DNA from: Gracilariopsis chorda
Lineage: Eukaryota > Rhodophyta > Florideophyceae > Gracilariales > Gracilariaceae
DNA length: 64,000 bases
Assembly (NCBI GenBank): GCA_003194525.1
Contig: NBIV01000026.1
Span: 1-64,000 of the forward strand
Direction of reading: 5' to 3'
The translations under genes were made by a program, and so were the position numbers. Below the pieces are notes generated by a model, which saw nothing but the letters and a program-made list of their open reading frames with translations, did not search any database and was not told where the DNA came from. Shown in pieces: positions 1 through 32,683 of this stretch. Within the stretch, counting starts at the first letter, position 1. Every line of letters begins with the position of its first letter.

Positions 1-1019
1 AACTCTGTAAGAGGTTCGTCTCGCCTCTGAAGGAGGGGTCACCTGTTGGCCCGAAGCCGTTCAGTATTTACTCCGCTCGTACGCGACAGGAACCGCAATA
101 CAGGAAGCTATCCTGGCCCTACGCGATACTAAGCAACGCCCAAAGGAAACGGAGACCGAATACTCAGTCAGACTGAACAAGGCCTTCACCGATGTGGCAA
201 TGTTTATTCCGCTAGCGAGCGTTGTACAATGTTTATCGACGGATTGGATCCGGCTATTCGCACCCTTGTTGCCCAACGTCGGGAAGACAGGAGGAAAGTT
301 ACCTACTTAGAAATTGGTACAGTACGCGAAGGCGGAAGGAGATGCCCTACGTGCCCGCTCCGGAAGCCGAGTCAGATCTCAGGCCCTACACATGGAGGCC
401 GCCCCGTCATCAGTTTCACTGTTGCCCCAGGAATACTCTCGACGTGAGGTTGACAATGTTTACTTTACTCAGCATGATCTGGTTTCCATACCCACAACGG
501 AGCTCCCGTCCACAACGGAACCTTCGGTGGAACTGGTAGCTTATGCAATCGCCAACGCGTTCGCGGCCCACAAGTTCCGTATGCTAACGGTAATCGTTAC
601 CAGAGACCTGGTTGGGTGGATACGCGCGCGTCAGCGGTGAAGTTTCAGGACAACCGAAATATCGGGAGACATCAGACGTTGATCTGCTACCTTTGTTACG
701 ACCATGGACACACGGCCCCACAGTGTATCATGACTCTGAGGGACATGCCCAAAGTGGTTTTAACTTTGAAGCCCTGACCCCGGAAGAACAGGCATCAGTG
801 CCTGTCACCGCATACTTGCGTGCGAAGACCGAGTTTCCTCGTAAGTTTACACCAGTTCAATCTGAAGCGGTACCCAGCACTGGTTCTTCCTTGGCCACCG
901 CTTCTGCGAATCAAGCCGCTTCGGCGGATGTTTCTGTTTCTCGGCAACCGGCTCCGCAAACCGCTTCATTGCCGCGGAATACTGTTCCCGTGAAAACGGA
1001 TGCCGCTCAGGAAAACTGA
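1..1019 (+). pseudogene. gag remnant of element A
   Basis: Three plus-strand frames must be combined. From about 53 the frame gives a Retrotrans_gag-type helical stretch (repeated leucine/arginine pattern, TKQRPKETETEYSVRLNK), and after a shift near 195 it continues as CTMFIDGLDPAIRTLV. The same stretch occurs in element B at 23150-23440, which confirms the joins. A zinc knuckle CYLCYDHGHTAPQC (pattern CX2CX4HX4C) lies at about 685-726. A Ser/Ala-rich tail ends at the stop at 1017-1019. Gag would form the particle and bind element RNA. The frameshifts make this copy a pseudogene. Confidence 0.85.
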
Positions 1020-1149
1020 GTGGGGAGTCTCTTTTAGAGAGGCGCCTGAGTCGAGGTCATCGGCGCCGAGGCGTCAAAGCCTCGCTCCCCGGTCAAGATC
1101 CTTTCAAGGCAGTTGTTGACCACCACAGACGTGGACTCGGCCCACCTCG

Positions 1150-3500
1150 GTGAGTTACGTCGCCCGTGGATACGGTAAGAATCATCGGTCACCGGATAGA
1201 GTCATGGTTATGGCCAAGCGAAACTACAAAGTTTTCGCTGACTTTGGCCTTTCCGCCCAGTATATGGTGCGTCATCTGTCTATTCTGGATATACAGGTGC
1301 CGGCCCCAATTTCATTGTCGAATCTCTCTTACCGCCTGAAGTGCGTTCTCGTGTTAGACAAGGACCCGTCATGGACGTTGCTGATGCCAATAACAACCCG
1401 TTGAAGACGGCTGGTACGGTTTCTCTGATGATCAGGATTGGTAACTGTTCGATGCAGCTCGAATTCTGTAAGACGCTAGCGGCCCCCGTTATCTTGGGAT
1501 GTGACTTCTGCGATCGTTTCGTAGAGTCAATTCGTCCGCGTGCGCGAGAAGTTGAACTAGAAGATGGTTCCATCATTCCGATAGTTCGTCGTTCATTACG
1601 GCGTGCCTCATCCAAGTTGGTTCCTCTTCCGGCCCCCTCGCAGGATTCGTCACCTCCAAAGGAGTCGCCCAAGCTACGTGTCGCACGACCAATCTCCATA
1701 CCGCCCGAATCACAGGCGTGGGTATCGGTTACTGCCGCTCCAAGAGGATTGCGTGTTGTTCAACCGCTCACCTCGCTGTACGAGAAGTATCAATTGGCCC
1801 TGGCTAACGGTGTCGTTCAGGTTTCAAATGAACACCCCTTTCAGGTCTTGATAGCCAACTTTGGCAAGAAGCCGCAGTATCTGGCGAAGAACCAAGTAGT
1901 TGGTACTGTACTTCCGCATCCAACGGCTTTAATCCCTACAAAGGTGTGCGCAGCCGATGTACTCGGATTAGTTCAAAAACCAGATGATACGCCTCATGCT
2001 AAGGAGGGGGAGGGATCCCACTCTTCTGTGGAGTCGCTCAGCACGAAAGATTCGGAAAAGAAGGCCGTTCCTACGAGTTACGATAAGTTGGACCCTGTGA
2101 AGGAGTTAAAAGATCTGGATCTCGGACATGTACCGGATTCACACCGCGAGAAGTTGCGAAAAATGTTGCGAGAGTTCACCTCAATGTGGGATGGATCCCT
2201 CGGGGAGGTGTCGGCCACGGAACACCGGATTGACTTGTTACCGGACACCAGGCCGATTGCTCAACACCCCTATAGGGCAGGCCCCAAAGCAAGGGAGGAA
2301 GAACAGTTCCATGTGGATAAAATGCTCCGCGAAGGCGTGATAGAACCGGCTCAATCACCGTGGCATCCCCAGTGGTACTGGCTCCGAAACCCGATGGGAC
2401 TTGGCGTTTTTGCATCGACTACCGTCGCCTTCATGCCGCCACTGTGAAAGACGTGTACCCCATACCGCGAATGGACGAGTATATTGACTCTCTCGGTGAG
2501 GCGACTGTCTTCTCCACATTGGATGCGAACTGGGGATACTGGCAAGTACCAGTAAGACCGGAAGACCGTGATAAGACCGCTTTCGTCTGTCATTCAGGTT
2601 TGTACCGCTTTAAGCGTATGCCGTTTGGGTTAACAAACGCTCCCGCTACTTTCCAGCGTGCGTTAGATATCCTCTTGGCCCGCTTCAAATGGCGATCGTG
2701 CCTCGTCTACCTTGACGATATCATAGTCTTCTCCAACAACTTGGATGATCATTTAGAACACGTTCGTGAAATCATGACCACGTTACGTGATGCTGGAGTA
2801 ACCCTCAAGCTGAGGAAGTGCGAATTCTTTACCGAATCGGTTAAGTACCTGGGCACGTTATTCGCCTGGGCGCTTGCCGATACAGGAAGCTCGGGTCAAA
2901 TCTCTCAAAGAGGCCAAGCACCCGAGAACTCAAACAGAACTCCGCTCCTTTCTAGGGTTATGTAACGTGTATAGACGGTTCATCCCAAGCTTCGCAAAGA
3001 TTGCGGGACCCTTAATGATCTTCTTCGAAAAGGACAACCGCCAAAACTGGGCCCCCTTAACCCTGCACAGGTGGAAGCTTTCAACTCTCTGAAGGAGGCT
3101 GTCACCTCTGCACCGATATTATCGTTGCCTAAGGACGGGTTACCTTATACCGTGGATACGGATGCGAGTGATTACCAAATTGGTTGTGCGTTATTCCAAA
3201 CGACTCCCGATGGGGAACGGAAACCAATCGGTTTTTGGTCCAGAACACTCAACGTCCACGAACGGAACTACTCAGTCCCTGAAAAGGAATGCCTCGCCAT
3301 GGTATGGGCTCTGCAAACACTCAGACCATATCTGATGGGCACACGCTTCACCGTTAATACGGACCACTCCGCTTTGCGTTGGTTAATGTCGTCACGGAAC
3401 CATCGGCCGCTTGATGCGTTGGAGACTGTGCCTCGCTGAGTTCGATTATGAAGTCGCTATAAAAAGGGTTCCCTTAATACACAGGCTGATGCTTTGTCTC
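1150..3500 (+). pseudogene. pol of element A: retropepsin, reverse transcriptase, RNase H
   Basis: Protease: a DTGA active site followed by GPNFI lies at 1288-1317, but two extra bases at 1291-1292 break the frame; ILGCDFCDRF near 1495 is the conserved second half. Reverse transcriptase: IDLLPDTRPIAQHPYR near 2230, FCIDYRR near 2420, the catalytic YLDDIIVFS at 2708-2734 and LRSFLGLCNVYRRF near 2935. RNase H: TDASDYQIGCALF near 3155, NYSVPEKECLAMVWAL near 3268 and NTDHSALRWL near 3357. Frames change near 1290, 2362, 2870, 3060, 3405 and 3470. Each join restores continuous similarity to element B, so these are indels rather than separate genes. In-frame stops are few, suggesting decay mainly by small indels or some consensus errors. 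Confidence 0.93.
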
Positions 3501-4790
3501 GTTTGGGAATGGAGGCGGAAACCCTTTCCGTCGATGACGATGATATCCCTTGTTTCCTTCTTGAAGAGAAGTTACGTTATGATCTGGTTTCAGATGATAT
3601 TGCTGATGATCTGCTCGTCGCTGACGGTGACGAACCGGATACCGGATCCTTCGCACCGATCACTCCCGAAGAGATGATCCGCGAACAGTATGGAGACCCG
3701 TTTTGTACGAAGATACGCGCCCAACTCAATGGAGGTGCTAACATTCCTTTCGGAGTCGACTCACAAGGTACTTGGTAAGGACTGTGTGTTCTTCGTCACA
3801 AATAGTGGTTCCCCATTCCCTCCAGTCGAGAGTATTACATCTCTCGCACTTTTCGAAGTTAGCTGCACACCCTGGTGGAAGGAGGCTATACACGACGTTA
3901 CGTCGGCATTTCTACTGGCCCGCCCTTGCGTTGGATTGCTACGCGATTGTTCGGTCTTGTACCCATTGTGCTCGTGAGCAAGTCAAGCTACGCCGCTATG
4001 CGAAGAAATTGACCCTGTTCCCGGCACGGGCTCCGCTAGAATTTGTCGCCATCGATATACTCGGTGAGTTCCTTCACACTGCACGTGGTAACAAGTTTCT
4101 ACTCGTAATAACGGATAGGTTCTCGAAGCTCGTCCGGACTGTAACGTTGAAGAAGATTACCGCACGATCCGTGGCAGAAGCATTTGTCCGTCGCTGGGTT
4201 CTCGTCTACGGTCCACCGGTTAATCTCTTATCCGATAACGGACCGCAGTTCGCCGCGCGTTTCTTCCAAGATGTTTGTAGAATACTTGAAATCAGAAATC
4301 TGTTTACAACGACATACCATCCCCAAGCAAATGGGCAGGTGGAACGGTTTAACCGAACGTTGTTGTCCGCTTTACGTGCGTATGCAGTTGAGCACCCCGT
4401 ACAGGGGATTTGTACACAGACACCGTGACGTACGCGTACAATACGCAGGTACACAGAGTAACTGGCTTATCACCCTTCGAGCTGGTGCTCTCACGTCCCC
4501 ACCGCCTGTGGCGATTGAGTCGCAGCCAACGCAGGACAAGTACCCGTCAACGGTTGATCATTACCTTCGATGGAAGAGTTGGCTCACACGGATGGTCCCG
4601 GTCGCGAAATCGTCAATGAACGCGAGCGCAACGAGCGTATCAACGAAATTTCGATGCCCGAGTCCGTCGGCCCCTTCCCTCACTGGAAGCAGGACAGTTC
4701 GTCTTCGTCAGGAAGGAATACTACAACCCTGAGAAGGAGAAACGCCACAAACTCTGGCCCATTGCGGATGGCCCCTACAAGGTCATTTCA
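3501..4790 (+). pseudogene. integrase of element A
   Basis: The HHCC zinc-binding module is visible at about 3835-3972: HLSHFSKLAAHPGGRR, then HFYWPALALDCYAIV, then CTHC. The catalytic core has Asp in VAIDILGEF (about 4045), Asp in LLSDNGPQF (about 4225) and Glu in GQVERFNRT (about 4338), i.e. the D,D35E triad spacing of retroviral-type integrases. Frameshifts lie near 3770 (just before HHCC) and about 4400, after which the TYAYNTQVHRVTGLSPFELV block continues in another frame. Integrase would join element cDNA to the chromosome; this copy is broken. Confidence 0.93.
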
Positions 4791-6323
4791 GTGAGCCGAG
4801 ACACAGTTGTACTGGAAGTTGGCGATTCTCATGAACGGTTCAGCCGCGATCGCTTCGTACAAGCCCCTAACCCGCATTCGGAAGTTGTACTGGCTCCCGG
4901 AATCCCGGACGCTCGACTGATGCCCACTGCAGAAGCACGTTCCTCGCACGCGCAATTAGCGTTGCGCGCCCATCGAGAGGTCTCTCGGACATACCGATTC
5001 TGTCGCAGCAATCTTCGGAATCTCCGGTACACGTTCGCTCGCGCTTTACGCCGCGTGTCGAACCACCGTCAGACGTTGTTTTCAGCCCCCGTCGCCGCCC
5101 CGGCTAAGGAGGGGGAGGAGGCCAGTCAATCCCGCTTTTTCAGCGAAGTCTACACCGCCGTCGCGAGCTCCTGTAAACTCTCGTGAGGCACGGCAACCTG
5201 AAGTAGGGACACCGCACGCTACCGCCGCACGCGTGGAACTACCTCAGCAGACTGGAAGGACCGGCCCCGCCGATGGAAAGCCTCGTGAGCACGCTACGCA
5301 GTCACCTCCGTTAAGGGAGCATACTGCCAACCGCACTCGCGAGACGCTGCAAAGAAAAACCGGACACAGACACTGTGCTGTCATCTCCCGTTGGAGGAAT
5401 GAACACAGGAAGCCTGGCTCGGAACCCGGACGCTCCGTTGGCCCCTACTCACCGGCTCCCGTCGAGAAAGTTGTAAGGACCCCGCCGCTGCAGCGCAGAC
5501 TAAGCAAGTCACGGCAGATCCCTGTGTATGGAACCCTGATGTACAGGACGCTTCGACACCCTCGCAAGTGGATGCGCAAGGTCCCACAAATGGGTTATCT
5601 GAAATTGAATCGTCTCTCATTAGAGGAAGTCTCTCTGGTACTGTACCAAGCAGCTCAGATCATCTGAATTCAGCTCACAGTATTGAAAGACTGGTTGCGT
5701 CAACCCCAGCAGGGATGGCCCACACCGCATATGCAGGAGAGCCTGATCGCCACGTGTTGCGAGATGTGCACCACACACCCATTCACGGTGACACAGCTCT
5801 GCAGTACAGGACGACGACAGCCAACCATTTGGATACGCCTCGCCAACCGGCACCCGCCGTGGCACATGAACCGCCTCCCCGTCACCAACCGTTGGAAATG
5901 GGACGAGGAAGCCTTCGCAGACTAGCGGTACGATCTCCCGAATCCGATGGGGTAGTGTCAACCTCAACGAGGAATTCAGTCGACCCTCATCAGGAAATCA
6001 CATGGTCAACGCCGCAAGCGAACGCCACGAACCGTTGGACGGACTCATCACCGGCTTTGCCGTCGGAAACAGCCGTTTTACGGACTGCAACCGGAACCGC
6101 GAAGCGTGACGTTTACTCGAAGGAGTTCATTATCGACCGTATCGTCGGGCACAGTTACAACCCAGAGGGATATATTCAGTACCAGGTGCGCTGGTATGGG
6201 TACCCGCCGTCCCATAACACGGACGAACCGGTAGAGAACTTGCCCCGATCGAAAATCGTGCAGTATCACCACCGTACCAGAACGGGAATACCAGGCACGA
6301 TTGACCGAGCGCTCGTTGGATAA
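4791..6323 (+). pseudogene. pol C-terminal tail and chromodomain of element A
   Basis: Downstream of integrase the reading frame runs through a low-complexity, Pro/Arg/Thr-rich linker (about 4870-6080, with frame changes) into a chromodomain at about 6109-6290: VYSKEFIIDRIVGHSYN, YIQYQVRWYGYPPS, VENLPRSKIVQYHH. The aromatic cage pattern and NLP motif match chromodomains of chromoviruses, which direct integration to marked chromatin. The same domain occurs in element B at 29230-29400. The stop is TAA at 6321-6323. The tail between integrase and chromodomain, about 1.5 kb, is long. Confidence 0.85.
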
Positions 6324-6616
6324 TCCACTGACTTGGTCAGGTGAGCCGTGAGCCCGGTTTTCCGGTGTGAAGATGGATGCCTTGAGAATGCGAGAAGATG
6401 GAAACCTCATGGAAGAGAAGATGAAGCTGGCTCATGAAGAGAAGAAGAAGACCCTGGATAGGAAGAAGCAAGGAAGAAAAAGAAGAAAAAGACACAAGCC
6501 CCACGAGGGAAGTTAAGCGTTTATTCGTTAACACGTAATTGCCCTCGCCTACCACTACCACGACCCCAACTATCAGGGATGGTGGACGCCAACCGTGGGA
6601 ACATCACTTCGCTCCC
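6324..6616. other. purine-rich spacer between convergent ORFs of element A
   Basis: This 293-bp stretch separates the pol stop (6323) from the stop codon of the minus-strand ORF (6617). About 6390-6500 is strongly A/G biased on the plus strand (runs such as GAAGAAGAAGAAAAAGACAC-like sequence). Element B has an equivalent GA-rich tract at 29620-29730 in the same place. It may act in termination of the two convergent transcripts or as an extra plus-strand primer region; neither is shown. Confidence 0.6.
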
Positions 6617-8479
6617 TCAAGAGGATGGACCACCACTCTGATGAGGATGGCCTGGCTGCGCCAGCAGCGCTAGCATGGCCGCCCGCATTTGCGCGATGTC
6701 ACCGGAAGCTCCCGAGGTATCCATTCTTAGTTCGCCAAGGAATTGGGCAATGATGGCCGCACGGTCCTGACCGGTCACACTCACCGATGGCGTGCCACTT
6801 CCAACCGGAGCGGTATGGAAGGGACCACCACCGACGTGAGGAATGGTCCAAGACGGAACCTGACTCGGCCCAGCCGGAGGAGCCACGGAGGGACCCGGAG
6901 TAGAGTACGCCGGCACCCTGAGGCCCTCAGCTGAGGGAAGGCCACCGCCACCGTTTGCGCCCACCCCAGTCGCGGGAGGATCATTGTCCATCATTGGATC
7001 GGCCTCCTCATAGGGTTGGAAGTATCCGTCAGTGACGATGTAGCCCGTCGGATGACCCGGTGGAACAACTCGCTCGCGATCGCTGAGTGCCAATGCCTCC
7101 GGCTCGGAGATGAAGCGACGCTCTACGGGATCGTAGTAGACGTAATCACCCGCCAACGGAGTTCGGCGCCCCGGAGACCGTTCGGCTGGATTGGTACCTT
7201 GATGACGGCGACTCCATTGGATGGGCACACTGTTCCAGTCAACCTGGTCCATCGCGTCTAACAGGGAGATAGCCTCATTATAGTTGCCGGCACCGCCGAG
7301 GACGAGGGAGAGATCCAATGAACGGATGCCACTACGCACTCGCGGAGGGAGATACCACAGTCTGAACTGGTCGTAAACCTCGAAGACGAGATACGCCGCT
7401 GCGCGGGCGACCCACTCAGTGAGGACAACGGACCACCACCCGGAGAACGGATTGCTGCATAGTCGACTACAGATGTAGGTGATGCATGGCGGAAGCTCGA
7501 TGTAGCAACCCCTGCAAGCCTCGTGGGCAGCCCACATCCTCGGTAGGGGAACGTAACGGCCTCGCATGTACTGCGGTCGGATGCGCTCAGCTTCAACGTT
7601 CTGATACGGTATCATGTAACCGAAACGGGATGGGGAACGACGTTCAAAACGGATCATCTGGAGGAAGTTAGACCGCGGATTATGGCGAAGATAACGGAAC
7701 TCAGCACGAAGTATCGGCCTTGCCCAACACAGGTAGTTCTGTTGAACAGATGCCGCTGGACCCCGCTCTGGGATGGACGGAGCCAACGCTGCTAAGCGGT
7801 CCCCATACCTCATTTCACCCTGGGTGCGGTAGAAGGCAATATCAAACTGATATTCTTCTGGGACCGGGAATTCCGATGGAGTCCGATACAACCGCTGATA
7901 CGCGAGCTGAATCATCGCGATACGCGCTTGCGCCCCACTCTCACCACGACGGTGGACCAAGACGTGCGTCGGCACGGCGACCCGGTTACGCCAGTCGAAG
8001 CTGAGAGTCATCCATACGTGGAGATCGCCCGGAAGGAGTCCGCTACCATCAGCATACTGCTCGATGAGATCTTCATTTTGCACCAACGTTGGGTGGAACC
8101 AAGGCGCACCGCTGTAGCGAGAAGGCTGCTCGGCCGGATCAACGGATACCAGCTCGTCGTACGACGGTAGTGCGCTCGCCGCAGGCGACGGAACCGACAT
8201 ACTCGGAGTGGCAGGTGTACCGCCCGAGGCGTTGCTTGGATGACCCGCAGAGGACAGAAGCGGTGCAGTCGGAAGACCGGAAAAGAAACCCGATGGCGGA
8301 AGATTGTTCCCGCCATGCGGGTCGTTGTTGCTGGGATTCATCGCTGAACGCGCGGAAGGTAAAGCAGGTCGTCGCAGGATAGGCGGAGAATTGCTGACGT
8401 CGAGTTGTTCTTGGTGGATATCCACTTGAGTGAAGACCAAACCCGAGCCGGATACGGTACCATCACTTGACGCGGACAT
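6617..8479 (-). CDS. antisense ORF of element A, conserved protein of unknown function
   Basis: An uninterrupted minus-strand ORF facing pol. I choose the ATG at 8479 (620 aa), because element B has an ATG at the equivalent place (31609) and only this start keeps the gene outside the LTR; an upstream in-frame ATG at 8593 would give 658 aa but lies inside the LTR. Residues 1-125 are Ser/Pro/Gly-rich. About 125-500 look globular, with LCWARP (250-255), GYMIPY (287-292), GRYVPLP (307-313), SGWWS and TEWVARA (346-360), EVYDQFR (367-373), QVDWN (412-416) and YVYYDP (446-451). About 500-570 is Gly/Pro-rich, and 572-608 looks helical. No signal peptide, zinc knuckle or catalytic motif is evident. 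I do not recognise the family. Coding status is supported by protein-level conservation in B. Confidence 0.82.
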   Translation of the reverse strand: MSASSDGTVSGSGLVFTQVDIHQEQLDVSNSPPILRRPALPSARSAMNPSNNDPHGGNNLPPSGFFSGLPTAPLLSSAGHPSNASGGTPATPSMSVPSPAASALPSYDELVSVDPAEQPSRYSGAPWFHPTLVQNEDLIEQYADGSGLLPGDLHVWMTLSFDWRNRVAVPTHVLVHRRGESGAQARIAMIQLAYQRLYRTPSEFPVPEEYQFDIAFYRTQGEMRYGDRLAALAPSIPERGPAASVQQNYLCWARPILRAEFRYLRHNPRSNFLQMIRFERRSPSRFGYMIPYQNVEAERIRPQYMRGRYVPLPRMWAAHEACRGCYIELPPCITYICSRLCSNPFSGWWSVVLTEWVARAAAYLVFEVYDQFRLWYLPPRVRSGIRSLDLSLVLGGAGNYNEAISLLDAMDQVDWNSVPIQWSRRHQGTNPAERSPGRRTPLAGDYVYYDPVERRFISEPEALALSDRERVVPPGHPTGYIVTDGYFQPYEEADPMMDNDPPATGVGANGGGGLPSAEGLRVPAYSTPGPSVAPPAGPSQVPSWTIPHVGGGPFHTAPVGSGTPSVSVTGQDRAAIIAQFLGELRMDTSGASGDIAQMRAAMLALLAQPGHPHQSGGPSS

Positions 8480-8536
8480 ACTTACGCACAACGCGCTGTC
8501 GCGGCGAACGCTCACCGAATGTGGTTCTTGCTCCTT

Positions 8537-8549
8537 AAGGAGGAGGAGA
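8537..8549 (+). promoter_or_regulatory. polypurine tract of element A
   Basis: AAGGAGGAGGAGA lies directly before the LTR start TGAAGTGCAACGC. Element B has AAGGAGGGGAAGA in the same position before TGTGGTGCAACGC. This is the expected primer site for plus-strand DNA synthesis and fixes the left LTR border. Confidence 0.85.
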
Positions 8550-9324
8550 TGAAGTGCAACGCTCCTAGCGGTATCAGCACGTCGTGCGCTCATATTCTGC
8601 TCTGGCGATGCTCACCACTTTGCCGTGAAGTATGAGTGTTACACCGGTAATCTGTTTCCGTTGGAAGGGCCCCAATTTGGTTGACAAGTGTAGTACACAG
8701 CATTGCTGGCTTGTGCCACACGTGTGTAGTGTTTTGCACCCCCGTAGGGACATTATTAGTTATTATTAGTTAATTACTACTGTACTGTCAGGGCGCGGAC
8801 CACCACTACTTATGTGTGTGAGCTCCGGCTGCCCGGGTCAAAGTAAACGCAACAAGCGAGTGTCTGGCTCTAACTCAGGTTCCCTGGTGATTGTCCACCT
8901 CCGTCTGGAGAGACGCCATCCTGTGAAGGCCTAGTTACCCACCTCGTGGAGCTCAGCACATTCTTACCACTATTGTGTTTGTTTTTGTGCACGCTTTTAC
9001 AGCGATTGTTATTCTTTGCCCCGTATACAGGTGTTGCTTCACTAGCAACTACCGGTGATTACCGTTGCTGTTTTCGCCACCGCCCCACTCGTGTGGACAC
9101 CGTGCCGCTCTTGCGCGTCGCCCACCACTCGTGTGTCGCTGCATTTTCCGCTTTCCCACTCCGTGGTCTGTCTTTGTCTCTACACCTGTACGCCAGTCGT
9201 GACGGTGGGTCCCGGTCTTACACCCGGCTCCGTGTACTCACCACAGGTGGTTCTGTCGCTGCGCTACCCTGCTGAGGAGGACGTCGAACACCCTCGTGTG
9301 TCTGTCCCATCTTGGGGTATTGCA
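8550..9324 (+). repeat. 3' LTR of element A
   Basis: The LTR starts with TG right after the polypurine tract and ends with GGGGTATTGCA at 9324; element B LTRs start and end with related sequence (TGTGGTGCAACGC ... GGGTTTTGCA). It is 775 bp. The matching 5' LTR lies outside the window, so the length cannot be checked against it. Beyond the two ends it shares little obvious sequence with the B LTR, so A and B are separate families of one lineage. No gene is expected inside; small ORFs here look incidental. Confidence 0.8.
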
Positions 9325-10472
9325 CCACAGGTACAGTATAGAATTAGCTTTCGTTCTCTGCGTTCTTCATAAAAGAGTCGATCCTTAATTCTGCGGAATG
9401 AGCCTTGAAAAGCCCTCATACCCCACTCCGACGCTTGTCTTGCAGAAGTTGCTTGTCTCAACAGAACGACTTCGGCCGCACCATCTGCTCTAGTTTCATC
9501 TTGAGCGGATTTGATGAGAAACGGATAGTCTCCTTTTGAAAAGGCAGAATCTACCACACATCGGCCCCCGTAAGTCCTGTAGCAATCTCCAATTTTTTTG
9601 TATACTCCGCCCCATTCTGCTATTTTTGAGTCATGCATACATCCAGGTGCATTTATTGCGCATGATACGATAGTCCCCGACGGTGCAAAAACAAAGACGT
9701 TACCAATGTAGTGGTCATGACTCCAGCCGTTGTAAAACATTTTTTGAATTACGAAGTCCCCAGACTGCTCTGAGTACAGCTTGAGGCCATCCGCTACAGC
9801 GTATAAATTTTGTAGAGACATGTACCTAGTGGGAAAGGCAGTCTTATACTGTTCCATCTCGTGCTGATCCGGCATCCGTACTTTTGCCCGGCTGTCCCTT
9901 GAATTTACACGAAGTAGAAGCTTTCTCCCGAAGCGAATGAAAATTGAACACACAGACGATGTAATGCCAAAGAGCATGCATAACGTAAACATCGATCCGC
10001 GTGTTCTGTGCCATGCAAGAACCAACCCCAAACACTGAGTCGCGGACATACTTCTCGGCCTCCCCCTTGTGCGATTCGTTAAGGCAATGATTCTGATGAC
10101 TCCATCTTCCGAGTAGGGAGTAAATCTGCGATATAGTGGAGCAAACTGCTGTAGTATAGCAACAAACTTGTAATGGTCAAAGCCGGTCACCGGTATCAAA
10201 GATTGTTCGCAAATTGACTGAAGCAGCACCATAAATGGGGAAAAGGCAGGACTTTGTAAAGCCCGGCGAGTTACTCTGCGGTTTCGACGTCTTCTTCCTG
10301 CAATCGTTAATCGATTTCGTAAGCCGATCCGTGGCATCTGGCGCTGACGGTGCGCCAGCATCGCGAGCAAGAGTGCAGATATAGAAGGCATAGGGACGCT
10401 CGTACTCGGTGTCGTACTCGCACACAATTGTGTGCGAGAGTTGCCGAATTGGTACGGACTTTTCGTGCCCAT
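9325..10472 (-). pseudogene. Harbinger/HARBI1-type DDE transposase, C-terminus cut off by element A
   Basis: The frame opens further upstream, but the first ATG is at 10472. The protein carries a DDE_Tnp_4 (PIF/Harbinger) nuclease: first Asp in AVADGLKLY, second in GCMHDSKIAEWG, a third acidic region VVDSAF, and the likely catalytic Glu in ASEWGMRAFQGSFRRIK. The residues before this, Arg-rich at about 45-75, may bind DNA. The coding frame runs without a break into the LTR of element A at 9324 and stops there at 9264, so the last residues are LTR-derived. The normal C-terminus (usually tens of residues after the Glu helix) should lie left of element A, outside the window. It may be a mobile transposase or a domesticated gene. 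Confidence 0.85.
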
Positions 10473-10834
10473 TTCAGTCGTATCAAATCTGTCAATACGT
10501 ATTTTGATATTTGAGTGCTGGTACAAATTTGTGTTTTTCGGAGCGACCCATTATTGTTTCGCGATTTTGCATGTGCTGTGTGCACCGCGTGCCCACCAGT
10601 GCTTGTGAGCCGTAATCACCCTGCACAACAGTTGTACAACGCTGAAACCTCTCATTTTTGCTCCAATCTGAGCAAACGCCGCCCGGTCGTCAGCTTGCAT
10701 CTCCCATGACCAACTTGCGCTCTTTTGCCATTTGAAGCCGCACGATATCAAGCTGAGTACGTCCATACACACCCGGCCCATCGCCGATCACCCTGCCTTG
10801 CTCGCCGTCCCTATACTTACTTCCATTTCGAGCC
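10473..10834. promoter_or_regulatory. divergent intergenic region, transposase / FGAM synthase
   Basis: This 362-bp gap lies between two divergently read genes and must hold the promoter of the FGAM synthase gene. I see no clear TATA box or repeated operator-like element. A pyrimidine-rich stretch (about 10760-10830) precedes the ATG at 10835. Confidence 0.4.
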
Positions 10835-13800
10835 ATGACAAATCCAGCCTTCACCACTCCTGCAACTCTCCCGAACACCAAGCCGTCCACGTCATCAACA
10901 CTATCTATCAACACTGGTTTTGTCCCAGAACTGCATCCACGAGTCCCTCTTTCGCATCCTCGCTGTCGTCCGCCCCGCTCTTGTCCCACTGCGCCCATTG
11001 CCTCAAATCCACTCCCCACTTCTGTCTCCGCTACCGTCATCCCATCTTCCACGGTTTTGCACTTCTATCGCTATCATGAACAAGTTCCACCTGCCACTCT
11101 GCGAATCGCAACCCAGATCTTTCAAGACCAACCACTAATCATCAATCAGGAAACTGTGTTCAACATCCGTTTAACCAAATCGCTGGATCCTCATCAGCTG
11201 CAAATCCTCCGTTGGCTCCTGTCAGAAACATTCGCTCCACAGCTTTTGAAAAGCTCATCTTCTCTAAACGAACCAGCCATTCATGTTGGACCACGCCTAA
11301 ACTTCCAGACCGCTTGGTCCTCCAATGCCGTATCAATCTGCCATGCATGTGGTATTCAAGCAATTGATCGACTGGAGCGCTCTCGGCGTTACACACTGCA
11401 GTATCCGGATGGATCCTTTCCTGCTCAGCATCTCGTAGAACAGTTTCAAGCCGCCGTCTTCGATCGCATGACCGAAACCGTCTACCCCAAAGTGCTTGCT
11501 TCTTTCGATACACCCATTCAACCGCAGAAGGCGTTCACCATCGACATTCTCGGGCACGGAGAGAATGCTCTTCGTGATTTCAACAACACCGATGGGCTTG
11601 CGTTCGATGAGGATGATATTGCGTATTACTCCAAACTCTTCCGTCAGCTGCATCGGAACCCTACCAACGTCGAGCTATACGATCTTGCTCAGAGCAACTC
11701 TGAACATTCCCGTCACTGGTTCTTTAAGGGGCAGCTCATAGTTGATGGGCAGCAAATCGATGATCATTTGCTTAATATCGTTCGGGAGCCCCTTCGTGTA
11801 AACCCATCCAATTCTGTTATCGCGTTTGCCGACAATTCATCCACGATGCGTTCCGGCCCAGTTCCACTGCTCATGCCGCGCACACCAGGTTTGTCTTCCC
11901 CGCTGATTGCGAAAGAAATTGATACTGATATCCTGTTTACTGCTGAAACGCACAACTTTCCGAGCGGAGTGGCGCCCTTCCCTGGAGCTGAAACAGGTAC
12001 AGGTGGGCGCATAAGAGACACGGCAGCTACGGGAGTTGGTAGCTTAGTCGGAGTGGCCACAGCTGGATATTCAGTCGGGAATCTTCATATTCCAGACTTC
12101 CCTTTGCCGTGGGAAGACCCCACCTTTGAGTATCCGAACAACCTGGCGTCTCCACTCGATATTCTCATCCAAGCAAGCAACGGCGCAAGCGATTACGGAA
12201 ACAAGTTTGGAGAACCTGTAATTAACGGCTTCGCGAGGACGTATGGTATCAAGTTGCAGAATGGACAGCGTCGAGAGTATGTCAAACCCATTATGTTCTC
12301 TGGCGGAATGGGTCAAATGCATCACCAACATGCGAGAAAAGGACAACCGGAAACAGGTCTCCTGGTTGTAAAAGTGGGTGGGCCGGCATACCGCATCGGA
12401 ATGGGTGGCGGCGCCGCATCTAGTATGATGCAGGGTGATAACAAAGCAGATCTCGACTTCAATGCTGTTCAGAGAGGTGATGCAGAGATGGCCCAGAGGG
12501 TCTACCGAGTTTTGCGTGCGTGCGTCGAAATGGGAGGTGATAATCCAATTGTCTCAATTCACGATCAGGGCGCTGGTGGGAACTGCAATGTCGTGAAAGA
12601 GCTCATATACCCATCTGGTGCAAAGATACACATTAGAAATGTCCTTGTGGGCGATAATACTTTATCGGCGCTTGAAATATGGGTTGCTGAGTATCAAGAG
12701 CAGTTCGGATTGCTGCTGCGTCCAACTCATGAACCGATGTTCCGCAAAATGTGTGCAAGAGAGAATGTCGAACCTGCTGTTCTTGGTTCTATTGACGGGT
12801 CTGGACGTATAGTATTGTGGGATGATCAGGAGAAACAAGCTGTTGTTGACATGGACCTAGAAGCAGTTCTAGGGGATCTTCCGCAGAAATCTTTCACAGA
12901 CTACAGGGTCGCATTCCATGGAGTCCCGCTATACATACCCACAGATACGAGTGTCGCTGAAATGCTTCGCCGAGTATTATCATTGATGAGCGTAGGTTCT
13001 AAGAGGTTTTTGACAACAAAAGTTGACCGCAGCGTGACGGGTCTCATTGCTCAGCAACAGTGCGTTGGACCATTACAGCTTCCGTTATCAGATTATGCTG
13101 TATCAACTCAGTCTTACTTTGCGTTACGAGGATCAGCAACAGCAATAGGCGAACGACCTACAATAACAGCCTTATCGCCCCAAGCAATGGCTAGAATGAG
13201 TGTAGGAGAAATGATGACCAACTTATGTGGGGCGAAGGTGACGTCAAGGGACCACATCAAATGTGAAGGAAATTGGATGTGGGCGGCAAAACTACCAGGA
13301 GATTGTGCATCTTTGTACGACGCAGCTGCGTCAACTCGAGATGTCATGATTGAGCTCGGTATAGCCATTGATGGCGGAAAGGACTCATTGTCGATGGCTG
13401 CTCGTTGTCCGACGAAGGATGGTTCCATGGAAACCGTCCGAGCCCCTGGAACATTGGTGATCAGTGGGTATTGTACGATGGAGAATGTCCAAGAGAAACT
13501 TACTCCAGATCTTAAAGCTCCAGGTGAGAGTTCGTTGCTTTTGATTGATATCGCTAAAGGTAAGAGACGAACTGGAGGAAGCGCACTTGCCCAGGTTTTC
13601 TCTCAAGTAGGGGAACGTCCACCTGATCTTGATGAGCCATCTCTTTTAGCAAAAGCTTTCGACACCGTGCAACAGCTCATAGGACACAATGGTGTTCTTT
13701 CTTGCCACGATGTCAGCGACGGTGGGTTGATAACAACATTACTAGAAATGGGATTCGCCGGAAACTGCGGAATTGATGTGTCTATGAACTCCAAAGATAT

Positions 13801-14971
13801 GGAGTATGACATTGTACAAGCTCTATTCGCAGAAGAACTGGGAATTGTCATCGAGGTTTCTTCGCAGTCTGAGCAGGACGTCTGCGAGGTTCTTCGTCGA
13901 GATGGATTGCCCTATCAGAGAGTCGGACAAACAAGAAGGGATCATGAAGTTCGCATACTAAATGGGTCAAACGAATTGTTAGTTGATGACATTCGGGATT
14001 TGAGAGATATCTGGGAGAGTACATCTTTTGCACTGGATAGGCAACAAGCGAACACGCAGTGCGTAGATGTAGAGCAAAAGAACTTGAGGAGCAAACAAGG
14101 GCCCCAATACAGAGTCACATTCAAAGCAAGAGAAACTCCACGAATGGTCATAGAGCAACTTGCAAAGCCAAAAGTGGCAATAATCAGGGAGGAAGGGTCG
14201 AACGGAGACAGGGAAATGAGTGCAGCCTTCCACATGAGTGGGTTTGAAACATGGGACGTATCTGTTCGGGACATCGCAAGCAAGAGCATTAGTCTATCAG
14301 ATTTCAAAGGCATCGCGTTCGTTGGTGGATTTTCTTACGCTGATGTGTTAGATTCAGCAAAGGGATGGGCCGGAGTAATACGCTTCAGCGATCTTGTTCG
14401 TTCAGAGTTTGACAGATTCTACGCGCGCACTGATACGTTCTCCTTGGGTGTATGCAACGGATGCCAACTCATGGCTCTGTTAGGAAGAATACCTTTCTCA
14501 TCCGATGTTCTGGACGAGAAGTCACAGCCCCGCTTCATCCACAACGAATCTGGGCGATACGAATCAAGATTCTCCACAGTGAAGATCTCGGAAGATAGTC
14601 CGGCGATAATGCTTCGCGGCATGGGCAGTTCTCAACTGGGAGTTTGGGTTGCGCACGGTGAAGGAAGAGCCTATTTCGCCGATGAAGAAATTTTGAAAAA
14701 GGTAGAACAGATGAACTTGGCCCCGTTGCGTTATGTCGGTGAAGATGGAGAAGTGACAATGATGTACCCGGACAACCCAAATGGATCAATGAACGGCATT
14801 GCGGGTATCTGCTCAAAAGACGGACGCCACCTCGCAATGATGCCTCACCCCGAACGCACTGTTCTCAAGTGGCAGTGGGGGTACCTTCCGAGGGAGATTG
14901 AAGCGCTTGATGCGTCGCCGTGGCTCAAAATGTTTCAGAATGCCTATGAGTGGGTGGTGAATGGTGATTAA
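10835..14971 (+). CDS. PFAS: phosphoribosylformylglycinamidine synthase (FGAM synthase)
   Basis: This enzyme converts FGAR, glutamine and ATP to FGAM, a step of de novo purine synthesis. The single exon encodes 1378 aa, against about 1300-1340 for the large one-chain form of proteobacteria and eukaryotes. Residues 1 to about 70 are Ser/Thr/Pro/Arg-rich with no similarity to the family and could be an organelle transit peptide. The PurS-like and linker regions follow, then the synthetase core with FTAETHNFPSG and GAETGTGGRIRD, a second AIR-synthase-like half (IDGGKDSLSMAA, SCHDVSDGG), and a C-terminal class I glutaminase with Cys1207 in LGVCNGCQLMALLG and His1338/Glu1340 in MMPHPERTV. All key motifs are present with no frameshift. 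The ATG at 10835 is the first in frame; start sites nearer residue 70 cannot be excluded. Confidence 0.97.
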   Translation: MTNPAFTTPATLPNTKPSTSSTLSINTGFVPELHPRVPLSHPRCRPPRSCPTAPIASNPLPTSVSATVIPSSTVLHFYRYHEQVPPATLRIATQIFQDQPLIINQETVFNIRLTKSLDPHQLQILRWLLSETFAPQLLKSSSSLNEPAIHVGPRLNFQTAWSSNAVSICHACGIQAIDRLERSRRYTLQYPDGSFPAQHLVEQFQAAVFDRMTETVYPKVLASFDTPIQPQKAFTIDILGHGENALRDFNNTDGLAFDEDDIAYYSKLFRQLHRNPTNVELYDLAQSNSEHSRHWFFKGQLIVDGQQIDDHLLNIVREPLRVNPSNSVIAFADNSSTMRSGPVPLLMPRTPGLSSPLIAKEIDTDILFTAETHNFPSGVAPFPGAETGTGGRIRDTAATGVGSLVGVATAGYSVGNLHIPDFPLPWEDPTFEYPNNLASPLDILIQASNGASDYGNKFGEPVINGFARTYGIKLQNGQRREYVKPIMFSGGMGQMHHQHARKGQPETGLLVVKVGGPAYRIGMGGGAASSMMQGDNKADLDFNAVQRGDAEMAQRVYRVLRACVEMGGDNPIVSIHDQGAGGNCNVVKELIYPSGAKIHIRNVLVGDNTLSALEIWVAEYQEQFGLLLRPTHEPMFRKMCARENVEPAVLGSIDGSGRIVLWDDQEKQAVVDMDLEAVLGDLPQKSFTDYRVAFHGVPLYIPTDTSVAEMLRRVLSLMSVGSKRFLTTKVDRSVTGLIAQQQCVGPLQLPLSDYAVSTQSYFALRGSATAIGERPTITALSPQAMARMSVGEMMTNLCGAKVTSRDHIKCEGNWMWAAKLPGDCASLYDAAASTRDVMIELGIAIDGGKDSLSMAARCPTKDGSMETVRAPGTLVISGYCTMENVQEKLTPDLKAPGESSLLLIDIAKGKRRTGGSALAQVFSQVGERPPDLDEPSLLAKAFDTVQQLIGHNGVLSCHDVSDGGLITTLLEMGFAGNCGIDVSMNSKDMEYDIVQALFAEELGIVIEVSSQSEQDVCEVLRRDGLPYQRVGQTRRDHEVRILNGSNELLVDDIRDLRDIWESTSFALDRQQANTQCVDVEQKNLRSKQGPQYRVTFKARETPRMVIEQLAKPKVAIIREEGSNGDREMSAAFHMSGFETWDVSVRDIASKSISLSDFKGIAFVGGFSYADVLDSAKGWAGVIRFSDLVRSEFDRFYARTDTFSLGVCNGCQLMALLGRIPFSSDVLDEKSQPRFIHNESGRYESRFSTVKISEDSPAIMLRGMGSSQLGVWVAHGEGRAYFADEEILKKVEQMNLAPLRYVGEDGEVTMMYPDNPNGSMNGIAGICSKDGRHLAMMPHPERTVLKWQWGYLPREIEALDASPWLKMFQNAYEWVVNGD

Positions 14972-19886: not shown

Positions 19887-20849
19887 CGCAATGTGGTTTC
19901 CATGATCAAGAAGCCGCGAAATCTAAGATCAGATGAGCGCAAAATCTGCTACGTCTTGATGACTAAATGATCCTCCGATGACTGGTCTACAGTCCGCGAA
20001 ACAACATTAAATACACACAGCACTCTTGGGCCGTTCTATGACTTTATTTACCCGGAAACAGAAAACGCGAAATTTGACGACGTCCAGTAAAAGGCAAGCA
20101 CGTAGCAAAACATGCTTGCCAAATTTCGTTTCCGTCTGCAGCCCACAAGTTTCAGCAGTCATGTGAACAACTTAACTCATCTGCATACCCTTGCTTGTTG
20201 AATGACCTCCTGCCAATCAAGATTTTACAAGAAGATGGACACAAGCGCAGTTTATGCCATCGGCTCGAACACGTCACAACACCATAAGCAGCATACCTAT
20301 TTTTCCAACATGGAGAGATTATCGACTAGCCAGCATTATGAAACCCAATAAGACACTATTCAAGCGTCCCAGACAGTCAAGGAAGCTTAATGTTTGATCA
20401 AACCCATTTCCCTCTATAATCAGAATTTTAATGCAATTATCAAAAGGATAAAGATGACAGGCGCACATAACGCTCTTTTATCAACAAAACATCTCTTGTT
20501 AGCACATAATGAGGTGTAAAGATCAATTATTATGTACCAAATTAAGACAGTAATTACTGACCAGCTAACTTCTAACCACAAAAATAATTTGACACAGCAA
20601 ATTGCATCAACTACGGTAAGAATTGTACGCACAGAAAATGGCGATAAAAAAATTCAAAACGTCAGACGACAAATACCCGTTTTTAGAAATGGAGTTACAG
20701 CTGCAGATATCTCAAACAATATATCTTAAGAACGAAACGTAACTCAGGGTGGTGACAGAACCCCTGATTTTGAACCAGTAGAGTATTTTTGTTTACTTTA
20801 TGTACTGGTAGATAGTTAAATGACAGCTACAAGACCTACATTCATGGAA
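19887..20849. other. AT-rich region between Mrs2-like gene and element B
   Basis: About 960 bp with no recognised gene. The right half (20400-20740) is clearly AT-rich; a 65-codon frame at 20532-20729 starts with TTG and has no motif. It forms the left flank of element B insertion. Confidence 0.45.
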
Positions 20850-21781
20850 TGTGTGTTGCAACGCAAAATGCATAGCAACCGCGATTATGGTACTCATAGA
20901 AGTGCGACTTTGTTACCGTGATGGCTCTACCGTATATGATTTGGAACCGTATGAGTTGATGCCAATGGGATGGTGTACTGTGTTAATGTTCACCAAGAAA
21001 GGTAAGAATCTAGAATGGATTGCAAGATGAGTGGACGCCTGTGTGCATGTGCGACAGCACCATGCTATATTGTTATGTTTTTCTTGAATTGATCCCTCAG
21101 TATGCCTGACACTGGCCTATCCATCTGTGTGGACCTGAGTAGGTGTGCACCATTATAGTTAATTATTATAGTTTATTATGGTAGTATACGTACTTAGGTG
21201 AGCGCCACTTCGTCGTCGCGAGCACTTAGAAATGTTAACCCGAGACTTCGGTCATTCATAACTGTTCCGTTTGGCCAGAGGTACCCGGCTCTTGATTGTG
21301 ACGTCGTTGCGGCTTACTAATCCTTGCGGAGAATCACTGCATTTGGTTCGCTTAAGTCAACCGCTTGGTAAACATACAGATATTCTGTGTTATAATTCTC
21401 GTGTGACATTTATCTACCGTGTTGTACTGGTATCGCCCCTGTATTGGGTAATTTTTCCGATACATCCCGTGCATTTGCACCCTCCTTCTGGTCTGTTTCC
21501 GCTTTACGCACGACCCGCTGGGTGGTTTTTCCCTGTCTTGGGAAGGCACCCTTCACCTCGTATATTCTAAACCACCGCATAGCGTGGCACACTGGTCTCT
21601 GGTTTTACCGTCTTTCTGGCTCCGTTTCACATTTCTTTATCCACATCTGGGGTCAATCCGAAATACCTACGTAGTTACGCCCGTATTACAGGTATACAGA
21701 GGGCACTGTCACTGGGTCTGCCTCCACAGGGAGCGAGGCCCTGGACAACTTGATTGTGATACCTAACCTTTGGGTTTTGCA
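20850..21781 (+). repeat. 5' LTR of element B
   Basis: It begins TGTGTGTTGCAACGC and ends GGGTTTTGCA, 932 bp, and aligns along its length with the 3' LTR at 31691-32672. Differences are scattered substitutions, small indels and a microsatellite expanded only in the 3' copy. Many substitutions show that insertion is old. An AT-rich block near 21155-21195 (TTATGGTAGTATACGTACTTAGG, shared by both LTRs) is a candidate promoter region. Confidence 0.88.
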
Positions 21782-21788
21782 CTACTAG

Positions 21789-21806: not shown

Positions 21807-22529
21807 AGGTTGAACTCTGCGTGTTTACTTCAACGTAATAACCATAATTGATTCACTTCGAAGAAGGAAGACTCACGTGAAAGTCGAAGAACTGGTGATC
21901 ATTTGGACCATCGTGTGGTGTTCGAGTGGTCTCGCTGAAGATATGTTTTGTATTTTGTGCTCCGTTCTTCAAATATCTCGTAATTGAGCTCTTCACTACT
22001 CTCAGTGGATGGGCTGGCCAATTGAGAAATGCCATCACCCTCTCAGGGTTCTTGTGCAGAATCTTCAGGCATTCCTCAGTCTGCTGCACCGCGTTCGCGT
22101 GGTTCCACCGTCCAGAATTCAACTACTTATGAGTTCGTTCCGGATGTTCGGGGAGCAACCCATGTTGCTTCAGGTCCGCGAGAAGTCGCAATGGTTATTC
22201 AATCTGTGGTCGAGACACCGTCAGCGGTTGTTCCGGGTCGCAATTTTGCTTTGTAGTTGTCTCGGCTCGAGTCTCGCCTGGACATCGCTGCTGCGACACA
22301 TGTGGAACTCTTGCAGATTGTAACCGAGCTTAGGTGTAAGGTTGAAAACGTCCAGGTTCGGGATGTCTCTAACGATCTACGTCGTTTGAGACAGAACTTG
22401 AATTTCATTTTGGAACATCTTAGTACACCCTAGTCTTTTATGAAGGGCTATCAGATATTTAACGATCAAGTTCGTGAAGCGACAGTTCAAATCCTCTCGC
22501 GTCTAGATATTCTTTAAGAAACAATCCGT
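21807..22529 (+). other. leader between LTR and gag of element B
   Basis: About 720 bp with no gene call. Short frames show gag-like hydrophilic sequence near 22030-22430 with frame breaks, so the true gag start may lie as early as 22020 (for example a TAYEFVPDVRGATHVA-like stretch near 22130). This cannot be settled here. Confidence 0.4.
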
Positions 22530-24030
22530 ATGGATGAAGCCGTGGACGCACGTGCTCAAAAAGATGCATCGTTTGGTTCGATTCACCACTCGTGCAAACG
22601 AAGTCAGCTTAAATCCAAAAAGGGAGTTCGCGTGCATTCGGATTCAACAGGTTCGGACTCTCAAAGTCACTCGAGTGATTCCTTTTCGGACTCATCGATT
22701 TCCGATATCAATCATTGGAGATCTCGCGTGACACGTTTTAAGGCCACGTACTACACTCATGAATTTATTCGCTCTTGCGAGAAGGGACGGCGCCACCTTA
22801 CGCTTAAAAAGCTGAAGCCGACGAATCCTCTTTTCATGGAACTGTTATCGTATCGATATTATCGCCTTAACGATTCATTGAATGATCGATCGTCACGAGG
22901 AACCGGAAAAGTCAGGGAATATATCAAAAGAATGAGTATCGCCTTACGGAATCGCTTAACTGGTGAAGACCCAATCTTGGTTCTAGACATCCTCGAAGTT
23001 CGTTCAGGAGTTTGATATACTCGGGATGAGTGAAGCACAAGCGCATGTCATTCTACCATACTTTCTGGCCGGTATGGCTGAAGATCAGTTCAATTCCGTT
23101 CGTAGATCTTCCCGTGCTTCAGAGGGTGAGGTAACCTGTTAGCCAGAAGCGGTTCAATACCTGCTCAGGTCCTGCACAACTGGTAATGCTATACAGGATG
23201 CGATACTCACTTCGCACGATACAAAGCAGAAGCCTGGAGTGACCGAAACGGTTTATTCGACGAGTTTGAATAAGTCGTTTCACCGTTGTGGTGATTTGTA
23301 CTCCGCCCACGAACGCTGCACCATGTTTGTTGATGGTTTTGATGCTGCTACCAGAGCTTTGGTTGCTCGCCGTCACGAAGAGAAACGGAGAGTTACCTAC
23401 CTCGAATTGGATCAATTTGCCCAAGCCGAGTGAGATACTTATCATGCTCGACATCCGTCGAGAAGTCGACCGTCGAGAGCCCTTCATTTAGAAGTATCAA
23501 CCTCTTTATCGCTACTGCGTGGTAGAACCGCAACCAGTGATAACGACAACATGCATTTAGCTGGATGTGACCCAGGCTCGTTGGGAACTACGGATCTCCC
23601 GTCAACATCGACTCCGATCGCTGATGGAGACCCTGCGTGTTATGGAGGCGTTCGAGTTCAGGCAGCTCCTCTCGCTTATGCGAACAACGGTAGTGTCACA
23701 CCCGTCCGGGTTGGAAGGGCACAACACAACTTCGGGTGGAAAATCGACCATCCGATGCCTCAGCACAGCTGATATGTTTTATCTGCTACATACATGGCCA
23801 TGTTGCACTAAAATGCACATTCCCCATGAGGGAAGGGTTGAAGATCATCGCACAGTACGAAGCCCTCACGCCTGAGGAGAAGACTCGTGTTAGGAGTTCG
23901 TCATACGAACAGCAGAAGTTCCTGCAAGCATACCTGCATCAGGTGTCAGCAGACGATGCCGTTCGAGCACCTAACCTTGGTAACAAGGTTGAAGACGGAG
24001 TACCTGCGAGTGGGGTTCAATCGTAATCTC
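22530..24030 (+). pseudogene. gag remnant of element B
   Basis: The ATG at 22530 opens a 161-codon frame with a Ser/Asp-rich segment and then a basic helical region. After a shift near 23000 it continues with MSEAQAHVILPYFLAGM and, past a stop at 23140, with EAVQYLLRSCTTGNAIQDA, the stretch shared with element A. A zinc knuckle CFICYIHGHVALKC (CX2CX4HX4C) lies at about 23775-23815, followed by MREGLKIIAQYEALTPEEK, also matching A. Frames change at least four times. Confidence 0.85.
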
Positions 24031-24124
24031 CCAAAGTGGTACATCTACCAACTCCGATGCAACTTGCTTCGAAAAACTAATCCCGGGAGTTTCCACTTCG
24101 AGAGCGACGTCTGTTGAGCAGAAG

Positions 24125-26575: not shown

Positions 26576-27534
26576 GTGTTATCCCGACTGGTAACTAATG
26601 CGGAAGCAGAACCAACAGGGGACCTGTATATACCATGCGTCATGGTTGGAGACCTACATGGAAGTGCTGAAATCCTTTTGGATTATGTATGTGACGACAT
26701 GTTGTCTACCCAAAGCTCGGAACCACTAGCTGGTTCATTTGTAACTATTGCTCCGGAGGAGATGATCCGTGATCAACACTTGGATTCTTCCCGCACGCAG
26801 ATTCGAGGACGCCTTAACGGAGGAGATCGAATACTGTCCGTGGTGAATGATGAAGGATATCTGGTTAGATTGGTCCAATCTACACCACAAATTGTGGTAC
26901 TGCACTCATTGCAACAGCGATTCTTACATATATCCCACTATGTGAAGTTAGGAGCTCACCCTGGAGGTCGATAGTGATACTTAACCCTCAGAAGGAACTT
27001 CTACTGGCCCGGTATGACACTTGACTGCTATTCAGTTCGCCGTTCTTGTACGGAGTGTGCTAAGAATAACGTGAAGCTACGTAATTACTCTAAGAAGTTA
27101 ACGTTATTCCCAGCTCAGGCACCACCGGAATTCGTCGCCATCGATATACTTGGAGAGCTTATCCAAACACCTCGAGGACACAAGTTCTTACTTGTCATAA
27201 CCGATCGATTTTCCAAACTGGAACGGACAATGCCGTTGAAGCGGGTTACTGCTAGTGCAGTGGTGCAAGCTTTGTCACTTACTGGGTCTTCGTATACTTT
27301 CCACCCGTGAACCTGCTCTCAGATAATGGAGGCCAGTTCACTTCTAACTTTTTCCAGGATGTCTGTCGAATCTTGACGATCGAGAACTCGTTCACAACGA
27401 CCTATTACCCCCAAAGCAATGGAAAGGTAGAACGATTTAGTCGTACAATGATTAATGCAATAAGATCTTATGTGGCGGATCACCACAAAGAATGGGGTTT
27501 ATACACCGATGCCATCATGTATGCCTAAAATACC
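26576..27534 (+). pseudogene. integrase of element B
   Basis: The HHCC module is seen as HISHYVKLGAHPGGR (about 26930), then after a shift FYWPGMTLDCYSVRRSCTEC (about 27000-27060). Core residues: Asp in VAIDILGEL (about 27140), Asp in LLSDNGGQF (about 27320) and Glu in GKVERFSRTM (about 27425). The frame breaks near 26975 and 27300 and meets a stop after MYA near 27528. Confidence 0.9.
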
Positions 27535-32672: not shown

Positions 32673-32683
32673 CTGTACAATTC

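Follow-up and report, generated by a model that had tools for sequence, protein, structure and literature searches.

Additional open reading frames (ORFs) located between pol and the 3′ long terminal repeat (LTR), on the antisense strand, are known from plant retrotransposons and from the fungal element Boty, and two sources call the function of LTR-retrotransposon antisense genes unknown (PMC7264820, PMC11963269). For Grande gene23, nuclear localization and expression from an independent promoter are reported (PMC7264820). Both sources describe HBZ and APH-2 of HTLV as antisense genes with a promoter inside the 3′ LTR (PMC7264820, PMC11963269). The Retand lineage, which carries antisense ORFs with TRP28 (PF04195), is described as non-chromoviral.

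We analyzed a window of 64,000 nucleotides (the whole stretch of DNA considered here) from the red alga Gracilariopsis chorda (Gracilariaceae); an earlier reading, made from the letters alone, had correctly judged the host to be algal. An unbroken 620-codon ORF occupies positions 6617-8479 on the minus strand, starting from an ATG at 8479, between pol and the 3′ LTR of a Ty3/gypsy element. By position and orientation it matches the antisense additional ORFs classed as aORF-3R. Grande gene23, RIRE2, PvRetro13, and Boty (aORF-3R) are alike in position, opposite strand, and many conserved copies (PMC7264820). The present case differs from these four in its red algal host, the absence of a recognized domain, and a lysine-free protein, with homology compared through Pfam only. 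Unlike Retand, the window element has a chromodomain, and Transposase_28 (PF04195) gave no match with 10 family members at E ≤ 1. Antisense additional ORFs are already known (Grande, RIRE2, Retand, and Boty); new are the protein family, the phylum, and the lysine depletion. Among the matches listed in open-licence titles and abstract openings for red algae, Gracilaria, and Gracilariopsis, no description of the ORF was found. The range of antisense genes thereby grows to include red algae, where the protein family is apparently unrelated; the system offers many stop-free copies and measurable selection fitting the element rather than the host.

The Ty3 element and its antisense frame

The element comprises the following features, in window coordinates.

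23-1016, plus strand: 3′ part of gag in a broken frame; a CCHC zinc knuckle, ICYLCYDHGHTAPQC, lies near 682-729 (tblastn, sister-copy gag)
866-6323, plus strand: pol, split into several frames in the window copy (ORFs, Pfam, tblastn)
2321-2965, plus strand: reverse transcriptase (RT) frame (RVT_1, E 1.4e-37)
2975-3439, plus strand: RNase H frame (RT_RNaseH_2, E 1.3e-33)
3742-4428, plus strand: integrase frame (H2C2 zinc-binding and rve core)
6126-6272, plus strand: chromodomain at the end of pol (PF00385, E 8.4e-10)
6324-6616, no strand: intergenic stretch between two converging frames, partly purine-rich on the plus strand (by eye)
6617-8479, minus strand: antisense additional ORF, lysine-free, 620 codons from Met 8479 (frame, genome matches, composition)
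6617-8341, minus strand: the antisense ORF from a more widely common Met, 574 aa (comparison of copies)
6983-8179, minus strand: conserved core, 399 aa (alignment with six other cores, 42-93% identical)
8537-8549, plus strand: polypurine tract AAGGAGGAGGAGA, adjoining the 3′ LTR (comparison of copies)
8550-9329, plus strand: 3′ LTR, 780 bp, TG...CA (comparison of copies with both LTRs)

The earlier reading had placed the ORF in a Ty3/gypsy context, between pol and the 3′ LTR and facing pol. Both points held: RT, RNase H, integrase, chromodomain, and LTR surround the ORF, with pol ending at 6323 and the LTR beginning at 8550. The 5′ LTR is missing: the window begins at the first base of its contig, which itself starts within the element. 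LTR ends were set by comparing copies that retain both LTRs, and the window 3′ LTR has TGAAGTGCAACG as its first bases at 8550 and GCACCACA as its last bases at 9329. LTR pairs were found in all five copies compared (C205, C83, C9, C246, and C160). The LTRs start with TGAAGTGCAA in five copies and with TGAAATGCAA in one LTR of C160, and they end with CACCACA or CACTACA in the five copies; the first TG of one LTR of C9 is mutated. A 5-bp target duplication was present in four of the five (C205, C83, C9, and C246), and none was recognized in C160. We also detected a putative primer binding site, TGGTCTCCCGACC, approximately 3 nt past the 5′ LTR (exact in 3/5 copies; C205 and C160 differ at one or two positions), and a purine tract directly before the 3′ LTR in the copies compared. 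Identity within the five LTR pairs was 97.3-99.5%, implying that these insertions are fairly young.

Gag and pol of the window copy are interrupted by frame changes, and the sister copy C83 has an open gag of 754 codons and a pol of 1824 codons, in different frames. The LTRs with duplication, the zinc-knuckle gag, the RT-RNase H-integrase order, the chromodomain, and the primer binding site and polypurine tract assign the element to Ty3/gypsy; it is of chromovirus type by Pfam assignment, the chromodomain having been scanned in the window's element. Next to it, a DDE_Tnp_4 transposase frame (9264-10550, minus strand), which we take to be Harbinger-type, extends by its last codons into the end of the 3′ LTR. 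Insertion of the Ty3 element seems to have occurred beside or into this frame.

The stop-to-stop span of the antisense frame is 664 codons (6617-8611). Dinucleotide shuffling of 6324-8611, repeated 500 times, never gave a frame longer than 368 codons on either strand, and the intact minus-strand ORF of 620 codons reported earlier is indeed open. Its start codon, 8479 or 8341, is uncertain from the comparison of eight copies, namely seven of the window's subfamily and the sister C9. Met 8479 is absent from two of them (C69 and C38), and Met 8341 was found in seven, the search pattern having missed the eighth, C83. Other families also have a Met near the 8341 position (by eye). The codons between 8479 and 8341 gave a dN/dS ratio (ω) of 0.23-0.29 between subfamilies; they look constrained, and 8479 may therefore also serve as a start. 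We considered an intron between 8479 and 8341 and dropped it, as the acceptor-like CAG before Met 8341 is absent in C9 and C246 (by eye). A donor-like GTAAGT was seen by eye in this region in the window and C246, and GTAAAT in C9.

The antisense start lies approximately 70 bp (Met 8479) or 210 bp (Met 8341) from the 3′ LTR. Because of this proximity, a putative antisense promoter should sit in the LTR or in the stretch between the LTR and the ORF. The gene is antisense, like HBZ and APH-2, and the counterpart of their 3′ LTR promoter is putative here.

Copies of the antisense frame in the genome

Genome searches started from five different family members, with the best candidates scored, identified at least 260 loci of the antisense ORF in G. 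chorda (union of the five, a lower bound); among the matches listed, the main matches per query numbered 71, 77, 75, 78, and 71. Overlapping same-strand hits were merged before ORF and RT loci were counted, and fragments (5, 1, and 11 matches from three of the ORF searches) were kept out of the counts. Three RT searches with 150 matches each yielded at least 265 RT loci. Among the matches listed, a related RT was located within 7 kb (a limit of our choice) on the 3′ side at 137 of the 260 ORF loci. The RT strand was opposite to the ORF in 137/137 such loci, at a distance of 3163-4746 bp, and a same-strand RT on that side occurred in 0/137 (among the matches listed). With a 15-kb limit and smaller lists, the RT was opposite in 79/79, with four beyond 10 kb (among the matches listed). 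Only four loci had an RT 5′ of the ORF, one on the same strand and three on the opposite strand, again among the matches listed. Seen from the RT, a facing ORF accompanied 137 of 265 loci; the other 128 RT loci and 123 ORF loci had no partner among the matches listed.

One genome search returned a stop-free match in 62 of 75 cases among the matches listed. In the C246 subfamily, most listed matches contain at least one TAA; in many C246-type copies it apparently lies close to the C-terminal end of the antisense protein, and it may be an earlier stop that was inherited. Sequences were read from seven families or subfamilies (window, C9, C246, C36, C305, C50, and C127). Core identity was 42-55% between families, and the six other cores were 42-93% identical to the window core. 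Homologues are present in other Ty3 families of the genome, as the sequence-only reading had proposed to check. The comparison of copies thus showed that several element families carry the antisense ORF at the same place and in the same orientation, and this shared placement argues for one old acquisition. Trees of RT and ORF displayed no supported conflict for six sequences; the deep nodes of the RT tree are weak (support 35 and 54), so the trees are compatible with co-descent of RT and ORF but do not establish it.

The window contains a second, older Ty3 element with a decayed relative of the ORF at the corresponding place.

20846-21783, plus strand: 5′ LTR of the second element (79.7% identity between its two LTRs)
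22266-28149, plus strand: gag and pol matches (tblastn)
29228-29437, plus strand: match to the chromodomain end of pol (tblastn)
30017-31393, minus strand: decayed antisense-ORF relative, 37% identity, 8 stops within the match
31685-32674, plus strand: 3′ LTR (LTR comparison)

The closest relative of the dead antisense copy at 30017-31393 is C36. More Ty3-like pol remnants, 25-42% identical to the element's pol, were observed at 41566-42979 (plus strand) and 60749-62936 (minus strand).

Selection and lysine content

Comparison of the window copy with C9 over the whole frame gave dN 0.076, dS 0.32, and ω 0.24, and the core (slightly shorter than 6983-8179) gave ω 0.10. Third positions accounted for 133 of the 237 changes between subfamilies. 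Little constraint was observed, in the same window-C9 comparison, for the linker (ω 0.57) and for a short C-terminal piece (8 nonsynonymous versus 1 synonymous change), and the stretch before 8479 showed ω of 1.3-1.8 against C9 and 1.0 against C160. In a six-frame comparison, the open antisense frame yielded ω 0.23-0.24; the five alternative frames contained 11-31 stops, with ω 1.2-2.3 in four of them. One sense frame gave ω 0.34 despite 30 stops, with third positions common to it and the gene. For pol of C83 versus C9 (973 codons), ω was 0.27. Five pairs of sister copies within subfamilies, with few changes each, gave ω 0.69-1.24.

These codon comparisons showed that the antisense frame is under purifying selection between subfamilies, not between the sister copies compared. 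Constraint between subfamilies and none between sisters indicates that selection acts during element replication, followed by drift once a copy is inserted. As judged from the substitutions, this pattern fits an element gene, not a host-domesticated gene. For the more distant families, where synonymous sites approach or reach saturation, we relied on protein conservation. For C83 and C9, dS was 0.13 in pol versus 0.32 in the antisense ORF; because these values differ, the two halves may have different histories, and template switching between subfamilies may explain the mismatch. The LTR divergence of the C83/C9 copies (L033, L041, and L042) is 12%.

The window protein contains no lysine and 49 arginines in 620 residues. 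We derived expected numbers of lysine codons (AAR) from position-specific base frequencies; for the 574-codon frame, 0 were observed versus 9.8 expected. The observed/expected values were 0/9.8 for the window, 0/10.3 for C9, 1/12.0 for C246, 4/9.2 for C36, 5/8.8 for C305, 2/13.0 for C50, and 4/9.9 for C127, with a total of 16/73.0. Lysine was thus below expectation in 7/7 families or subfamilies; the Poisson tail was strong in four (P 3e-5 to 2e-4) and weak in three (P 0.03-0.13), and, as the seven share ancestry, the counts are not independent. No deficit was found in gag (27 versus 19.4 expected) or pol (74 versus 52.3) of C83, in pol of C160 (85 versus 55.8), or in a host gene resembling FGAM synthase (66 versus 58.9). 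The latter, a long unbroken frame at 10836-14971 on the plus strand, identified by eye, served as the host control for lysine content.

Among individual copies, lysine is absent from all 12 stop-free loci of at least 96% identity, a set that counts the window's locus and three loci of fewer than 574 residues; the stop-free copy L025, 94% identical, has one. Of the 451 residues of the dead copy at 30 kb, 14 are lysines; two other much decayed copies have 6 and 3. Copies with 1-4 stops hold 0-4 lysines, with none in L019 (4 stops). Lysine regain in decaying copies is a weak test here: C36, the nearest relative of the dead copy, already carries 4 lysines, and no more than 0-4 are found where a copy has 1-4 stops. 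The cores of the distant relatives P0007 and P0008 contain 13/391 and 9/396 lysines.

We regard as doubtful, though by no means negligible, the explanation that the depletion is a base-composition effect of a coding strand poor in A and has no meaning. The AT skew of +0.17 on the plus strand over 6001-8000 makes the coding strand T-rich, and the depletion is only mild in 3/7 families or subfamilies; however, position-specific base frequencies are already built into the expected counts, and Glu, Gln, and Asn of the window protein are not below expectation. Furthermore, AAR codons are at expectation in the two remaining frames of the coding strand (8 versus 8.3 and 6 versus 5.6), indicating that the lysine deficit is not simple base composition.

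Lysine-free or lysine-poor stretches occur in the ubiquitin system and in some viral proteins, and avoidance of ubiquitylation has been proposed in PMC10169902, which lists lysine deserts with arginine kept in UBQLN2 (521 residues) and BAG6 (950 residues). The antisense protein resembles the lysine-desert proteins named there (UBQLN1/2, BAG6, San1, and some viral proteins) in its long lysine-free stretch with arginine retained. It differs from UBQLN1/2, BAG6, and San1 in that a whole 620-residue retrotransposon protein is lysine-free and no ubiquitin-system domain was found in it. A broad literature search on retrotransposon antisense proteins and lysine gave no report among the matches listed. 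We infer that lysine is avoided since the protein contacts, or must outlast, the ubiquitin system; the desert suggests that the antisense protein must persist near ubiquitin ligases. Lysine avoidance at the protein level is thus a specific, testable hint toward this system.

Possible roles of the antisense protein

With modest confidence, we lean towards an accessory gene of a Ty3/gypsy clan, encoded opposite gag-pol and expressed through an antisense mRNA of its own, which encodes a regulatory or accessory, lysine-avoiding protein. A promoter in or beside the 3′ LTR would generate the separate mRNA, and the protein translated from it would support element replication as a regulatory or accessory factor. 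Its role may be likened to that of antisense retroviral proteins such as HBZ, and of Grande gene23. The element probably uses the protein to aid its own spread.

The protein gave no significant Pfam match (10 members, E ≤ 1), with two chance-level hits from 1/10 members each. NCBIfam and a PDB sequence search with the family profile gave no match, and PHROGs returned a single hit with E 0.31, in keeping with the earlier claim that no domain is recognizable. The bZIP domain, a hallmark of HBZ, was not detected in the window protein (no significant Pfam match), and no sequence relation is claimed. AlphaFold2 modelled the 574-aa form poorly (pLDDT 47.7) and gave a middling, mostly helical model of the core (pLDDT 67.3, pTM 0.66; best of five models, the others 45-51). 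Foldseek and VIA searches with the predicted models yielded no significant match. The ends are poorly conserved and of low confidence in the model and the core is kept, as expected from the proposed conserved core with disordered ends. The accompanying suggestion of a structural or nucleic-acid binding protein is unsupported: neither domain nor fold searches matched significantly, and the core has a nearly neutral rather than a basic pI (5.7-6.8, with Arg 10-12% and 11-18 Trp in six cores).

A structural protein (capsid-like, envelope-like, or movement-type) packed with the element, in place of a regulator, is unlikely. The helical core rich in Arg and Trp and the poorly modelled ends would suit it, and of the two Foldseek hits obtained with the first, poor model, neither of them significant, the second was a HERV-K capsid (E 9.4), but this hit was not repeated with the better core model. 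Moreover, a structural protein made from the antisense strand would no longer be tied to the dosage of Gag-Pol.

Antisense orientation also fits a captured host gene, or a second element (e.g., another element's gag) nested in reverse; we consider this origin decidedly unlikely. An RT on the ORF's own strand was found in 0/137 ORF loci with a 3′-side RT (among the matches listed), the sense strand already has a gag with a zinc knuckle, and neither Retrotrans_gag nor any other Pfam family matched significantly. Its constant placement across several families points to a single old acquisition. Three protein searches, with approximately 8,000 candidates scored in each, returned family members only, so the unrelated host protein that the earlier reading had named as counter-evidence did not appear. 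Two annotated G. chorda proteins are among the relatives, and each matches several loci.

Lentiviral Vif and Vpx remove host restriction factors via the ubiquitin machinery. By analogy, the nearly or wholly lysine-free protein of the clan might act in counter-defence at this machinery, for instance as an adaptor that removes a silencing or restriction factor and is itself immune to ubiquitylation; we regard this specific role as quite improbable. Very improbable is a scheme in which the antisense transcript matters and not the protein, pairing with genomic RNA for dsRNA regulation and leaving the frame as a by-product: the convergent arrangement of ORF and pol would allow it, and the review PMC7264820 raises dsRNA-type regulation for plant elements, but a by-product frame would lack the amino-acid constraint seen in the open frame against five stop-laden ones, and the core identity between families persists although synonymous sites are near or at saturation. 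Purifying selection strongly opposes the transcript as the sole function; an additional transcript role could accompany the accessory protein that we favor.

Beyond the G. chorda genome, a partial relative, P0006, was identified in Agarophyton chilense, of the same algal family (Gracilariaceae), and no relatives were found in viral contigs, prokaryote genomes, or plasmids. Further protein relatives are P0001, P0002, P0004, P0007, and P0008. Gaps in the gene models P0003 and P0005 are likely artefacts, the stretches being open in genomic copies (by eye). P0007 represents 33 member sequences, perhaps a repeated element in another host too. In both P0007 and P0008 the core is followed by a long tail; that of P0007 holds 22 of its 35 lysines. 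Lys/Arg clusters were observed by eye in the tails of both proteins.
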